Shown here: in pieces, positions 10,154 to 39,925 of the stretch
Layout: each line of letters begins with the position of its first letter
Position numbering within the stretch: the first letter of the stretch is position 1
DNA from: Synechococcaceae cyanobacterium
GTDB lineage: Bacteria > Cyanobacteriota > Cyanobacteriia > PCC-6307 > Cyanobiaceae
Length of the DNA stretch: 51,003 nt
Direction of reading: 5' to 3'
Assembly: GCA_947378425.1 (NCBI GenBank)
Contig: CANCJV010000031.1
Coordinates: 1 to 51,003, forward strand
The notes under the pieces: model-generated
What the model was told of the DNA's origin: nothing
Seen by the model: the letters and a program-made list of their open reading frames with translations, nothing else
The model's database searches: none
Position numbers and translations under genes: made by a program

Positions 10154-11476
10154 TCAGAACTGCAACTGCAGCTGCAGGCCCAGCGCCAGGATCGGGCCGA
10201 TGCCGGCCGGGGCCTGGATCCACTGCAGCACCGGTTGCAGCGACAGGCTGCTGTTGAGATTGAAGCTGTAATTGAGTTCCAGCAGGGATTGCGGCCTCAG
10301 CCCCGCCAGCAGTTGCTGGTTGAAGCTGCTGCGGCCAAAGCCCAGGGCCAGCACATCAAAGGGGCGCCCCGCGATCAGGCCCTGGCAGAGCCAGCCACCG
10401 CTGCCGAACAGCGTGACGGGATTGCCGCCGGCCTCATTGCCGCCACTGAGCCCGAGCCAGAGCCGGTTATCCAGGCCGATCGGCAACGCGGGCGCCAGGG
10501 TGAGGGAGCTGAACAACATCGGCAGAATCGCGCCGCTGCTGTCATCGGCGAGATAGCCACCACCCACCTGCAGCAAGGGCGCCGGCAGCATCCGGCTCAG
10601 GGCCTGGCCCCGATGCTGGATCGGCGCCACCAGCCGCCGGGCCCCGGGCAGGCGATCGAAGCGCCACTGCAGCAGCTGGATATGACCCGAGAAGCTCGGC
10701 GGCTCGGAGACAACCCCGAGCAAGGCGGAGGTGCTGAGGCTGGGATCGAGCAGATAGGCGGCGTAATGCCATTCGCCCCGCGAGCCGGAGTCCCCGGGCA
10801 GGGACGGATCAACGGCGCCGGGACGCCAATGCAACTCAAGACCCGCCGCCACAGCGGGATTGATCGGCAGACCGGGTTGATTGAGATTGAGGACGTCGTT
10901 GAACACAGGGCTCAGATAGGCGACCACGGCGGGGGCATACGCGAAGCCGGGATCCACCGAAAACAGACCAGCCTTGACATCAATCCCTCCCACACCCCCA
11001 TGCCGCTCGATGCTGGCCTCACTGATCCAGAGGCCGGTGGGACTGTCCAGGGCCGTCAGCGGGAAGGCCGCACCGATCCGTTGGCCGTAGCCGGCGACAC
11101 CGCTGAGCAGCTCGAGCGTCCCATGCAGCTGCCAGTGATCGGCCTCGCTCCAGCGGCTCGGATCCTTGCCGAAGCCGCTGCTGAACCTGGCATCAAGGCT
11201 GGTCTGCTGAATCGAGTTGCGGCCTTGAACCAGGCCGCCGCTGGGATTGACAAAGCCATCAACCTGGACACTCAGCGCCAGGTTCATCCAGGCCGGCACC
11301 TTGAGCAGCCCATTGAGCGTGGGCCAGGACTGGCTCAAAGCCAGGGGCGGCTGGGGCGATGGCGGGGTCAGCGTTCCGGCCGCGGAGCCAGCTGGAGCTG
11401 GTGCCTGGGGATCCGCCGCCTTGGCTGGGCCGATGGTCGCGGCCGTAATCAACGCAGCGATGCCGAGGCGCCGCAA
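10154..11476 (-). CDS. OprB-family outer membrane porin
   Basis: Beta-barrel protein resembling the carbohydrate-selective OprB porins common in cyanobacteria. Beginning at TTG 11476 a Sec signal peptide is clear (RRLGIAALITAATIGPAKA, cleavage after AKA). The body is a series of amphipathic strands (for example WHYAAYLLDP, LLQVGGGYLADD, FDVLALGFGRSSF) and the chain ends LGLQLQLQF with the terminal Phe of an outer membrane barrel. No SLH domain is seen at the N-terminus, unlike larger cyanobacterial porins. The frame is open to ATG 11680, but a 68-residue extension before the signal is unlikely. The substrate is unknown. Confidence 0.7.
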   Translation of the reverse strand: MRRLGIAALITAATIGPAKAADPQAPAPAGSAAGTLTPPSPQPPLALSQSWPTLNGLLKVPAWMNLALSVQVDGFVNPSGGLVQGRNSIQQTSLDARFSSGFGKDPSRWSEADHWQLHGTLELLSGVAGYGQRIGAAFPLTALDSPTGLWISEASIERHGGVGGIDVKAGLFSVDPGFAYAPAVVAYLSPVFNDVLNLNQPGLPINPAVAAGLELHWRPGAVDPSLPGDSGSRGEWHYAAYLLDPSLSTSALLGVVSEPPSFSGHIQLLQWRFDRLPGARRLVAPIQHRGQALSRMLPAPLLQVGGGYLADDSSGAILPMLFSSLTLAPALPIGLDNRLWLGLSGGNEAGGNPVTLFGSGGWLCQGLIAGRPFDVLALGFGRSSFNQQLLAGLRPQSLLELNYSFNLNSSLSLQPVLQWIQAPAGIGPILALGLQLQLQF

Positions 11477-20133: not shown

Positions 20134-20567
20134 CAGCGGCAGCGCTTTGGGGTCTCGGGCCCGGCGGGCTGTGGGGGCGGCAGGGAGTTGCTGGCTCCGC
20201 CGCCGGCCATCCTGGACTCTCGCCGCAGAGCGCCCGAGCGCGCAGGGCTGCAGCGGCCTGACCGCCTTGATGCCGGCCTCATGCCGGCTCGGCTTCCCTG
20301 GGGAGGCGTCCCCTGCAGCTGTTCTCCCGGTTGAAACCCAGCCCATGACTCCAGGGCACCGCTGCCGTCTTCAGCCCCAGACCGGAGCAGGCTGCGGGGG
20401 TGGCCTGGATCGCCAGGGGTTGGCGCCGGTTTGCCCTTGGTCCAGCCCCTTCGCTTCCAATCGCCTCAATTTCAGTCCCCTCGATTCGTACGCTGAGGTC
20501 CGCTCGCCACGTCGCCGGGGAGACTGGGCTTGATCAGATCCATGGGCGGATTGATGGTGGTGACCCG
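20134..20567. other. divergent intergenic region of the selenium block
   Basis: About 430 bases between yjbQ (minus) and mnmH (plus), the likely site of both promoters. The mnmH frame is open back to 20400 but lacks conserved sequence there. I see no clear hairpin regulator or repeat. Confidence 0.45.
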
Positions 20568-21587
20568 GTGATTCCAACCCTGCCGATCTCGGCATTCCTG
20601 GCCGCTCAGGGGCCGATCCTCGACGTGCGCAGCCCGGCGGAATTCGCCCAGGGACACATTCCCGGGGCAACCAGCCTGCCGCTGTTTGACGACAGTGAGC
20701 GAGCCGAGATCGGCACGCTGTACAAGCAGCAGGGTCGCCAGGCGGCCGTGCTGCGCGGCCTGGCCCTGGTGGGGCCGCGCATGGGAGCCCTTGCCGGGGC
20801 CCTCGCCGAGGCCGCGACCGACAGCGTCCCCCTGCGGCTGCACTGCTGGCGAGGCGGCATGCGCTCGGCCTCGGTGGCCTGGCTGGCCCGCCAGCTCGAC
20901 CTGCCGGTGCTGCTGCTGGAGGGGGGCTACAAGGCCTACCGCCGCTGGGTGCTGGCGCTGTTCGAGCGACCCTGGCCCCTGCGGCTGCTGGGCGGACGCA
21001 CCGGCTGCGGCAAGACGGAGTTGCTGTTGGCCCTGGCGGAACGGGGTGTGGCGATGGTGGACCTTGAAGGCCTGGCCCACCATCGCGGCAGCAGCTTCGG
21101 CGCCCTGGGGCTGCCACCCCAGCCCAGCAGCGAGCACTACGAAAACCGGCTGGCCGCCGCCCTCTGCCGCCTGGAGGGCGCCCCGGCGATCTGGCTGGAG
21201 GCGGAGAGCTCCCAGGTGGGCCGCTGCCGCATCCCCTCCGGCCTCTGGCGCCAGATGCGGGCCGCCCCGGTGCTGGAGGTGCAACGCTCAATCGAGCAGC
21301 GGGTGGCCCACTTGGTGGCGATCTACGGCATCCAGGAGCCGCAGGCCCTGGCCGAAGCCACCCAACGGATCGCCAGACGGCTCGGCCCCCAGCGCACGGC
21401 CGCCGCCCTGGAGGCGATCGAACGGGCGGACTGGGCCACCGCCTGCCTGCAGATGCTCGACTACTACGACCGCTGCTACGACCATGAACTGGGCCAGCAT
21501 CGGCTCTCGACGGTGGAGCTGGGCCAGCTGAGCCCAGCGGCGGCGGCCCAGGAGCTGCTGGATCGAGGCCTGATGACTCCGGGCTAA
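20568..21587 (+). CDS. mnmH: tRNA 2-selenouridine synthase
   Basis: MnmH (YbbB/SelU) exchanges sulfur for selenium at the wobble 2-thiouridine of Lys, Glu and Gln tRNAs, using selenophosphate. The rhodanese domain starts with ILDVRSPAEFAQGHIPGA and carries the catalytic Cys in LHCWRGGMRS (Cys93 from the chosen start). The P-loop domain follows with GGRTGCGKTELL (143-152). 339 residues is the normal length. GTG 20568 (VIPTLPISAF) is chosen; the longer frame has no conserved residues. Its stop overlaps the convergent selD stop by 4 bases. It is the only selenium consumer visible here. Confidence 0.95.
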   Translation: MIPTLPISAFLAAQGPILDVRSPAEFAQGHIPGATSLPLFDDSERAEIGTLYKQQGRQAAVLRGLALVGPRMGALAGALAEAATDSVPLRLHCWRGGMRSASVAWLARQLDLPVLLLEGGYKAYRRWVLALFERPWPLRLLGGRTGCGKTELLLALAERGVAMVDLEGLAHHRGSSFGALGLPPQPSSEHYENRLAAALCRLEGAPAIWLEAESSQVGRCRIPSGLWRQMRAAPVLEVQRSIEQRVAHLVAIYGIQEPQALAEATQRIARRLGPQRTAAALEAIERADWATACLQMLDYYDRCYDHELGQHRLSTVELGQLSPAAAAQELLDRGLMTPG

Positions 21588-23776
21588 TCCACTTCGCCGG
21601 CCAGCACCTGGCCGATCAGGGTCGCCTCGCTGAAGCCGGCAGCCCGCAGGGCCGCCAGAGCCGCCGGCGCCCGCTGCGCCGGCAGCGCCGCCAGCAGCGG
21701 GCCGCAGGTCTGGGGATCGAGCATCAGGGCCTCACGGGCCGCCGCCAGCGGACCGCCTCTGGAACAGCGCACAGCCCCCTTCAGCAACGCCAGGGCACTG
21801 GCATTGGCCGGGGCCAGACTGCTGGCATACCCCCACTCAAGCAGCTCCAGGGCCCCCGGCAAAGCCGGGATCGCCTCGGCGTCGAGCGCCACCCGGACCT
21901 CCGGGGCAGCAGCGAGCATTTCGCCCAGATGGCCCAGCAGCCCGAAGCCGGTCACGTCGGTGCAGACCCGCACCCCATGGGCGGCGAGCAGCGGCACCAG
22001 CTCGGCCTGGCTGACCTGCATCACCGCCAGGGCCGCATCGATCCACTGCGGCTGCGCCGCCCCCGCCATCGCCGCCGCAAACAGCACCCCGCTGCCCAGA
22101 GGCCGGCTCAGCAGCAACACATCGCCAGGAAGCAGGGGGCCCTTGGGCCAGTGACGCGCCGCCGGCACCCGGCCATTGACCGTGAGGGCCAGGGCCAGGG
22201 CCGCCCCATCCCGGCCCTCGAGGGTGTGGCCGCCGATCAGGGCCGCCCCCAGGGGCTCCAGCACCGAACGCACCCCCGCCAGGGTCTGCAGCAACAGCTC
22301 TTCCTGCAGGGCCTCGGCGGCCTGGGGCACGGTCACCAGGGCCTGCACCGATTGCACCGAAGCCCCGGAGGCCCAGAGATCGCTGCAGGCGTGCAGGGTC
22401 GTGAGGCGGGCATTGAGCCAGGGATCGTCGAGCAGGGCCGGGAAGCCATCCAGGCTCTGCAGCAGCAGCTCCCCATCGGCGGCCACAGCCAGAACGGGGG
22501 CGTCTTCAGCCGGCGGGGCCTGACCGTGCGGATCAAGCCGGGCCAGGGCGCCAGCGAGGGGTCGGGCCGCCAGCTTGGCGCCACAGCCCCGGCAGGCCAT
22601 GGCCCCGGCCAGGGAATCGGGGTTCACCTCCCTGGCCGCGGCCAGGGAGGTGAACCGGGCCATGAAACGACGGTCGATCCACTGCTTCCAGCGCCACAGC
22701 CAGCGGTACGGCCCCAGGACGAACGGTCCCCAGAGGGCGAGTGCCCGGAAGTCCTGGGGCTCGCAGGCTCCGAAAGCCGCGCCCACGCCCAGCAGCTGCA
22801 TGGCCCAGGCCTGGGGCCGCCAGGACTGCAGCGACGCCCCGGGCTGCTCCAGCTGACGCTGCAGATTGCTGGCCAGCACCGGCGCCGCCCGCACCGCCCA
22901 CACCCCCGACGCCGGTCGGGGAGCGGCGTCGATCAGGCCGCAATCACCGGAGGCGAACACCTGGGGATGGCCGATCACCGCCAGGGTGCGCTCCGTCAGC
23001 ACCCGGCCGCTGGCCGCCTGCACCGGCAACCCGGACGCGGCCAGCCAGGCCGGCGCCCGGCTGCCGGTGCAGGCCAGATCCGCCTCTGCTGGAACCACTT
23101 CTTGCCCCGGTCCCTGGCGCTCCAGGGGGATCGCCGCCTCGGCCAGCAGCCGCTCCACAGCCCGCCGGGCGGCGGCGGACTCGAAGTGGAGTTCATCGCC
23201 TCGCAGCAGCAGGCGAGCGGCCACACCGCGACGGCGCAGGGCCAGGGCCACCTCCACCGCCGCGGCACCCCCTCCCCGGATGCGCACGCTCCGCCCGGGC
23301 TCCAGGGCCTCACTCCAGTCCAGAAAGGGCTCCAGCGGCTTGACCGCCAGCTCGCCGATCCCGGCCGCAGGGTTGTCGAACGCAGCGCCGTTGGTCCGGA
23401 CCGGCGGCACCACAGCCCCGCTCACGGCGCCGACATCGAGGCTGAGGATGTCGAAGCGCAATGGCGCCCGTCCCGCCAGCTCCAACTGCCGCCGGCCAAG
23501 GTCGAGGCCGGTGATCTCCGCCTGAATGAAGCTCACGCCGGCCAGGCCGCAGAGTCGGCGCAGATCGATCGCGCACTCGCTCCGCCGGTAGTGGCCGGCC
23601 ACCAGGCCCGGCACCATGCCCGAATAGAGAGCTGTGCTGGCGCGATTGACCAGGGTGATCAAGGTGCCGGCGGGACGGCGGGACGGAGCCATGGCCCATT
23701 GGCGCAGCATCAGGGCATGGCTGTGACCACCGCCGGCCAACAGCAAGGAGCGCTGAGGCCTGGAGGCGATGTCCAA
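21584..23776 (-). CDS. selD: selenophosphate synthase fused to an NDH-2-like flavoprotein
   Basis: Two-domain protein of about 730 residues. Residues 1 to about 370 form a pyridine nucleotide-disulfide oxidoreductase domain (LLLAGGGHSHALMLRQW, IRGGGAAAVEVALAL, FASGDCGLID) of the type II NADH dehydrogenase kind. The rest is SelD, which makes selenophosphate from selenide and ATP: ACRGCGAKLA holds catalytic Cys398 and Lys401, and VTGFGLLGHLGEM and IGGHTLEGRD are typical. No UGA codon occurs, so it is the Cys form. TTG 23776 gives the conserved start (LDIASRPQRSLLLAGGG); ATG 23854 is an alternative. The fusion may deliver reduced selenium directly. A perfect palindrome marks the junction. Confidence 0.92.
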   Translation of the reverse strand: MDIASRPQRSLLLAGGGHSHALMLRQWAMAPSRRPAGTLITLVNRASTALYSGMVPGLVAGHYRRSECAIDLRRLCGLAGVSFIQAEITGLDLGRRQLELAGRAPLRFDILSLDVGAVSGAVVPPVRTNGAAFDNPAAGIGELAVKPLEPFLDWSEALEPGRSVRIRGGGAAAVEVALALRRRGVAARLLLRGDELHFESAAARRAVERLLAEAAIPLERQGPGQEVVPAEADLACTGSRAPAWLAASGLPVQAASGRVLTERTLAVIGHPQVFASGDCGLIDAAPRPASGVWAVRAAPVLASNLQRQLEQPGASLQSWRPQAWAMQLLGVGAAFGACEPQDFRALALWGPFVLGPYRWLWRWKQWIDRRFMARFTSLAAAREVNPDSLAGAMACRGCGAKLAARPLAGALARLDPHGQAPPAEDAPVLAVAADGELLLQSLDGFPALLDDPWLNARLTTLHACSDLWASGASVQSVQALVTVPQAAEALQEELLLQTLAGVRSVLEPLGAALIGGHTLEGRDGAALALALTVNGRVPAARHWPKGPLLPGDVLLLSRPLGSGVLFAAAMAGAAQPQWIDAALAVMQVSQAELVPLLAAHGVRVCTDVTGFGLLGHLGEMLAAAPEVRVALDAEAIPALPGALELLEWGYASSLAPANASALALLKGAVRCSRGGPLAAAREALMLDPQTCGPLLAALPAQRAPAALAALRAAGFSEATLIGQVLAGEVD
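22621..22656. repeat. perfect 36-bp palindrome inside selD
   Basis: GGTTCACCTCCCTGGCCG at 22621-22638 is followed at once by its exact reverse complement (22639-22656). Outer flanks add further partial symmetry (CATGGCCCCGG near 22599, CCGGGCCATG at 22655). It encodes FTSLAAAREVN at the flavoprotein/SelD junction, ending 35 bases before the catalytic Cys398 codon in mRNA sense. Confidence 0.95.
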
Positions 23777-23893
23777 GGATCCGCGGCCGGGGCCCTGCAC
23801 GCAGCTGTCAGGGCGAAGGTGTCCCCATTCTCGCGCCCGCCCGATCCAGCCCAATAACCTGATCGCAACCCTGACTCAGGGGCTGGAACAACG

Positions 23894-36833: not shown

Positions 36834-36861
36834 GGATTGAGTGTCACCTGACACTCAATCC
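36834..36861. repeat. 28-bp inverted repeat, intergenic
   Basis: GGATTGAGTGTCA (36834-36846), CC, then its exact reverse complement TGACACTCAATCC (36849-36861). No T-run follows on either strand, so it does not look like an intrinsic terminator. Confidence 0.9.
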
Positions 36862-39897: not shown

Positions 39898-39925
39898 AAA
39901 ACCCTCGCCACGGCGAGGGTTTTTT
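39898..39925 (+). terminator. intrinsic terminator of psbB-psbT
   Basis: Stem CCCTCGCC/GGCGAGGG (39902-39909 with 39912-39919), flanked by AAAA before and TTTTTT after, 33 bases after the psbT stop. A strong, canonical structure. Confidence 0.95.

Follow-up and report, generated by a model that had tools for sequence, protein, structure and literature searches.

A perfect 36-bp palindrome in the linker of a cyanobacterial oxidoreductase/SelD-related fusion gene as a probable scar of a short template-switch mutation

Template switching of a DNA strand that folds back on itself is described as an established model of mutation for bacteria, phage T4 and yeast (PMC7202029; PMC8604942). The bacterial account draws on a hotspot in thyA of Escherichia coli and on lacZ reporters, in which quasipalindrome-associated mutations are explained by the model of Ripley from 1982 (PMC7202029). 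Template-switch multinucleotide mutations of yeast are reported to replace up to five neighbouring residues (PMC8604942), and template switching is described as capable of making perfect RNA hairpins in one step (PMC8794818). Palindromes within coding sequences are reported from the mitochondria of Nematomorpha, with template switching offered as one possible cause (PMC6649704). The gene that carries the palindrome presented here is related to the Ndh-SelD fusions, of which the detected members are described to carry a CxxC motif (PMC2398784). The corresponding NCBIfam family, TIGR04369, has the NCBI short name 'fusion_not_SelD', a caution against taking the enzyme activity as proven.

The window, i.e., the whole stretch of 51,003 bases analysed in this study, contains a perfect 36-bp palindrome with arms of 18 bases and no spacer (Table 1). 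The original prediction of an exact palindrome was confirmed by the identity of the sequence with its own reverse complement, and the location had also been recognised correctly, in coding DNA at the junction of two domains and ahead of a CxxC motif. The encoded peptide FTSLAAAREVN presents residues 401-411 of the minus-strand frame, for which the start codon is uncertain, the outermost one in frame being a TTG at 23854. The deduced protein matched TIGR04369, 'oxidoreductase/SelD-related fusion protein', with 873 bits (cut-off 700) over residues 39-744, and this full-length match together with CRGC at 421-424 affiliates it to the oxidoreductase/SelD (Ndh-SelD) fusion class. The C-terminal half matched TIGR00476 (selD) with 182.5 bits (cut-off 125) from residue 418 onwards, the N-terminal part TIGR03169 with 257.5 bits, under the cut-off of 310, up to residue 401. 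Since one match ends at residue 401 and the other starts at residue 418, the palindrome occupies most of the linker. Pfam domains were Pyr_redox_2 (residues 52-312), AIRS (450-563) and AIRS_C (576-754). C421, R422, G423 and C424 were invariant in an alignment of six sequences. The distance of 35 bases given for the palindrome and the catalytic Cys codon is right for C424 (22583-22585), the second Cys of the motif and, by analogy with other SelD proteins, the putative catalytic residue; the codon of the first one, C421, is nearer to the palindrome (22592-22594). Solved SelD relatives, 3u0o and five other distinct sequences, matched the SelD half only, and a structure prediction of the fusion protein based on an alignment of six sequences had a mean pLDDT of 37.2 and was uninformative on the flexibility of the linker. 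The fusion gene and its tail-to-tail neighbour overlap by 4 bases. This neighbour codes for MnmH, which uses selenophosphate, yet the best model for the fusion protein is the one named 'fusion_not_SelD'.

Table 1 Features of the palindrome and its surroundings (positions in the window)
Feature	Position	Strand	Remarks
Perfect 36-bp palindrome	22621-22656	minus	touches codons 400-412 of the fusion gene
mRNA-5' arm (putative template arm)	22639-22656	minus	encodes F-T-S-L-A; closer to relatives
mRNA-3' arm (putative derived arm)	22621-22638	minus	encodes A-A-R-E-V-N; probable inverted copy of the 5' arm
Outer inverted-repeat piece CATGGCCC	22657-22664	minus	also in the sister species
Outer inverted-repeat piece GGGCCATG	22598-22605	minus	also in the sister species
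CxxC motif C421-R-G-C424, SelD-like domain	22583-22594	minus	Cys codons TGC and TGT
Oxidoreductase/SelD-related fusion gene	21584-23854	minus	756 codons; NCBIfam and Pfam matches
tRNA 2-selenouridine(34) synthase MnmH	20400-21587	plus	NF008750, 398.2 bits (cut-off 241); tail-to-tail neighbour

The palindrome is beyond chance expectation, as had been claimed. Other spacer-free palindromes of the window with arms of at least 7 bases had arms of 9, 8, 8, 7, 7 and 7 bases, and the longest arm in 40 order-3 Markov simulations of the window was 11 bases. A sample of 451,003 bases was composed of the window and 20 stretches of 20 kb from the same genome. Twelve perfect inverted repeats with arms of at least 12 bases and a spacer of up to 8 bases were present in this sample, and the palindrome of the fusion gene was the longest of all with a spacer of 0-8 bases. 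Five simulations of 451 kb, again with spacers up to 8, yielded five repeats with arms of 12 bases in all and none longer. Eight repeats of the sample had arms of at least 13 bases, compared to none in the five simulations; three of these eight were located outside long frames and another one (L050) looked terminator-like. The additional partial symmetry noticed outside the palindrome is real and consists of the pieces CATGGCCC and GGGCCATG. They probably predate the palindrome, because both occur in the sister species.

In a survey of the genus, 40 of 42 genomes, including that of the window, had a match to the fusion protein, one (G039) at 27 % identity only. The domain junction was read in 29 of the 39 other matching genomes and in four additional ones (L034-L037), thus in 33 orthologues. 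Neither the palindrome nor the peptide FTSLAAAREVN was present in any of the 33. A conservation across orthologues, raised by the original prediction, was therefore not observed, and orthologues that keep the peptide but lack the symmetry, named there as evidence to the contrary, did not come into play since the peptide itself was absent from all that were read. The linker ahead of the CxxC motif is variable: 34 genes had 16 to 28 residues of varying composition. It comprises 69 nt in the window versus 72 nt in each of the seven closest relatives; other members of the genus have 48 to 84 nt. The 60-base flanks upstream and downstream were 77-92 % identical to the close relatives. For the 5' arm an identity of 0.44-0.78 to the seven close relatives was obtained, for the 3' arm 0.17-0.72, with 0.08-0.58 for its outer 12 bases, and the 5' arm had the higher value in all seven comparisons. 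The alignment within the linker is uncertain, and in the sister alone the two values were little apart, 0.78 (5') and 0.72 (3'). Because the 5' arm is closer to the relatives in seven of seven cases, the mRNA-3' arm is interpreted as derived, by inverted copying of the mRNA-5' arm.

The nearest relative, the sister species (L004), has a gene sequence identical to L033 on contig CAIJRN010000044.1 of a metagenome-assembled genome. The fusion proteins of window and sister were 88-89 % identical, while the DNA differed by about 10 % (226 of 2280 columns, 18 of these being gaps). The linker reads RFTDLAAAMAPANAAGPAGAMAC in the sister versus RFTSLAAAREVNPDSLAGAMAC in the window; the sister is one codon longer, as are the six next relatives. 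The core GCCGCGGCC is present at the same place in the sister, the only source for the reconstruction of the direct ancestor. Eight clusters of mismatches separated the two genes. Within a search range of 15 bases beyond each cluster, an inverted copy of 27 bases was found for the linker cluster, and for the other seven, one of them an end gap, the copies had at most 10 bases.

We regard the palindrome with good confidence as the scar of a short template-switch mutation, i.e., a quasipalindrome correction, that occurred in the lineage of this species, in frame and in a tolerant linker. In the ancestor, the 5' arm (GGTTCACC..CTGGCC, coding for FT.LA) would have stood ahead of a short palindromic core rich in GC (TGGCCGCGGCCA or a similar sequence). 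The strand being synthesised may have folded back on this core during replication and used its own 5' arm in place of the true template for about 8-12 further bases, after which synthesis would have resumed on the template close to an AAC/CCG match. Judged from the sister sequence, after which this ancestor is modelled and which differs by about 10 % in DNA, the GC-rich core around GCCGCGG would have served as the seed, with the return point near AAC.CCG. Probably in a single step, this would have produced the perfect palindrome of 36 bp and replaced the peptide, with 3 bases lost on balance and the frame intact. The frame is kept because the net change is minus 3 bases. Selection would tolerate the change, the slot being part of the variable stretch that links the oxidoreductase and the SelD-like domains. 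Two characteristics of template-switch products were found at the locus: the new sequence repeats a neighbouring one exactly in inverted orientation over 18+18 bases, and one arm appears ancestral and the other one derived (seven of seven relatives, for the sister by a small margin). The mechanism is known, and the palindrome is an unusually clean example of it.

Other origins of a perfect palindrome have to be considered. Dispersed palindromic elements, such as the Rickettsia palindromic elements, occur in several copies per genome, and their insertion lengthens the host gene. The original prediction had offered the in-frame insertion of a palindromic element, and so much is correct that a perfect palindrome resides in a coding frame without damage to it. 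However, a BLAST search of the own genome with 161 bases, on both strands, matched only the palindrome locus, and an extension of the linker was not observed: with 69 nt versus 72 nt in the seven closest relatives, it is shorter by one codon. The 36-mer was detected with up to 3 mismatches in one of 400 family genomes, the window's own, and in none of the 399 others; a search of a plasmid collection had no match. Allowing up to 2 mismatches, a 17-base arm had 13 other matches in the genome versus two for the reversed control, but 12 of them contained 2 mismatches and the remaining one contained 1. This excess probably reflects common coding words such as CTGGCC, and neither the 161-base search nor the arm pattern revealed another copy of the palindrome in the genome. 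It appears that one arm was overwritten by an inverted copy of the other, rather than that 36 bases were inserted, and a mobile or dispersed element is extremely improbable. Fold-back reads make inverted duplications, and the draft state of the genome with its 84 contigs leaves room for a chimera of this kind. Yet such a chimera would run on into the inverted flank, whereas the palindrome is bordered on either side by correct orthologous sequence in frame, and in comparison with the sister the segment was replaced, at a net cost of 3 bases. We thus hold a sequencing or assembly artefact for improbable. Point substitutions in the GC-rich linker could also have converged on the palindrome by chance; the core and the outer pieces are already partly symmetric in the sister, so that fewer than 18 pairs had to be formed. 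The simulations, which reached arms of 11 (40 of 51 kb) and 12 bases (five of 451 kb, spacers up to 8), make this very improbable.

Another explanation would be a lineage-specific functional hairpin, a stem in the mRNA that slows the ribosome in order that the first domain folds before the second is made. Indeed, a fold of 91 nt had -52.1 kcal/mol versus -38.6 kcal/mol for shuffled sequences (z -3.93, and -3.8 in the comparison with relatives; 1 of 200 as good), and the stem is placed at the domain boundary. The sister folds strongly at this position too (z -2.88), by another inverted repeat, its stem being unrelated to that of the window and having a longer loop. The mean z of 29 relatives was, however, -0.89 with three of them below -2 (L004, L025 and L014), and the longest perfect junction stem with a loop of up to 8 bases had arms of 8 bases or less in all 29 relatives of the genus. 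Neither the sequence nor the stem is common to the relatives, and one mutation suffices for the stem, so that selection need not be invoked. The suggestion of a hairpin that stalls translation found no support as a conserved device, with peptide and symmetry unshared and few strongly folding relatives, and a function restricted to this lineage is unlikely. The statement that the palindrome is not a standard SECIS proved right: the frame contains no stop, and the Cys codons of the CxxC motif are TGC and TGT. A recoding for selenocysteine was rejected, as an in-frame UGA is absent and the Rfam matches of the region 22300-23000 (E up to 1) did not include a SECIS family. The eight Rfam matches in this region had a best E of 0.0008, all far under the gathering scores, and the seven on the palindrome (models of microRNA and VA RNA) are taken as the weak matching of any perfect stem. 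Terminator-like sites were absent from both strands of 22300-23000, which rejected an intrinsic terminator, and a promoter was not found in the same region.

The sister species has an inverted repeat of its own in the same linker slot. In a scan of 34 genes that allowed spacers up to 40 bases, a perfect inverted repeat unlike that of the window, with arms of 15 bases and a spacer of 14 bases, was detected at 3225-3268 of L033 (CAIJRN010000044.1). It consists of GCCATGGCCCCGGCC, 14 bases and GGCCGGGGCCATGGC, and is the longest inverted repeat of the sister gene. An inverted repeat of equal arm length (15 bases, spacer 32) is located elsewhere in the fusion gene of L024. The 3' copy of the sister encodes PAGAMA, comparable to LAGAMA in the window and MAGAMA in the outgroup L008. 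Because of this resemblance of the 3' copy to window and outgroup, the 5' copy is taken as derived, which would imply another copying event in the opposite direction. Apparently the same slot was overwritten in both sisters from opposite flanks, or one event came after the other. This paired event, a post hoc observation, is the most interesting part of the case. A general concentration of inverted repeats in the linker is not supported for the 34 genes: four of 96 repeats with arms of at least 9 bases overlapped the linker, extended by 6 bases on each side, while the linker without the extension accounts for 2.7 % of the gene length. Only tentatively can the linker be considered a template-switch hot spot of the clade, in which a slot of about 20 bases was overwritten in both sisters by inverted copies of opposite flanks, and linker peptides (AREVN, AMAPA) were repeatedly invented by fold-back copying instead of point mutation. 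In a variant of this proposal, the hairpins may be kept for slowing translation between the domains.

The coding status of the 12 repeats with arms of at least 12 bases was assigned by a crude stop-to-stop test, which placed seven inside a frame. Three of the other apparently coding repeats were compared to four chosen relatives, namely 8513-8546 of L065 as well as 11029-11058 and 15442-15468 of L061; L050, L051 and L056 were left out. The first one (contig C20 of the window's genome, arms of 14 bases) is located near the C-terminus of a frame that by eye resembles a sigma factor, and its right arm differed in all four relatives. The two repeats of L061 (contig C16) are perfect with arms of 13 bases in apparent coding frames. 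All 12 comparisons had imperfect arms in the relatives, a contrast that is biased by ascertainment, as the repeats were picked for being perfect in the window's genome, and that for 11029-11058 depends mainly on two adjacent bases. These three repeats lend weak support to a general process of quasipalindrome correction. Perfect stems with loops of 2 bases were also observed outside long frames of the window at 36834-36861 (arms of 13 bases) and 39898-39923 (arms of 12 bases), the latter bordered by runs of A and T in the manner of a two-way terminator. Another member of the genus has a perfect inverted repeat with arms of 17 bases and a loop of 2 bases past the 3' end of the fusion gene (L022, 5041-5076). 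A loss of SbcCD, a nuclease that cleaves palindromes, might be considered a cause of their tolerance; SbcD was represented in the window's genome by one partial match of 45.7 bits, under the cut-off of 77.65; among 14 control genomes, 13 had a match and eight exceeded the cut-off.

The fusion gene offers a clean between-species example of a type of mutation by which a long perfect palindrome arises and a bacterial protein acquires several new residues, probably in one event. Such a palindrome can give the false impression of an insertion element or of an RNA structure under selection. Together with the different repeat of the sister at the same slot, it presents a natural site for measuring the frequency of linker evolution by fold-back copying. 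The palindrome adds little new to selenium biology. With the Ndh-SelD fusions described (PMC2398784) and with TIGR04369, the gene has in common the oxidoreductase domain and the SelD-like domain with a CxxC motif, and apart from the sequence of the linker no unusual feature was noticed in it. A close resemblance is to the quasipalindrome mutations described for bacteria (PMC7202029), which also act over a short range in coding DNA and, as presumed here, perfect an imperfect repeat by the copying of one arm. The present case is, in contrast to those, a difference between species instead of an observed event, and it comprises 36 perfect bp and a net loss of 3 bases compared to the sister. The in-frame replacement of several neighbouring residues, for which selection is not needed, is shared with the template-switch mutations reported for yeast (PMC8604942); here, the organism is a cyanobacterium, an estimated four to five linker residues were replaced, and the comparison is based on one sister pair instead of a strain tree. 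With the one-step RNA hairpins (PMC8794818) the locus shares a perfect stem from one presumed event, but the stem belongs to a protein-coding gene and not to a structural RNA. Perfect inverted repeats inside protein-coding genes are also reported for the mitochondria of Nematomorpha (PMC6649704), where the palindromes are numerous, up to 284 bp long and located in conserved regions, whereas the palindrome of the fusion gene resides in a variable linker.
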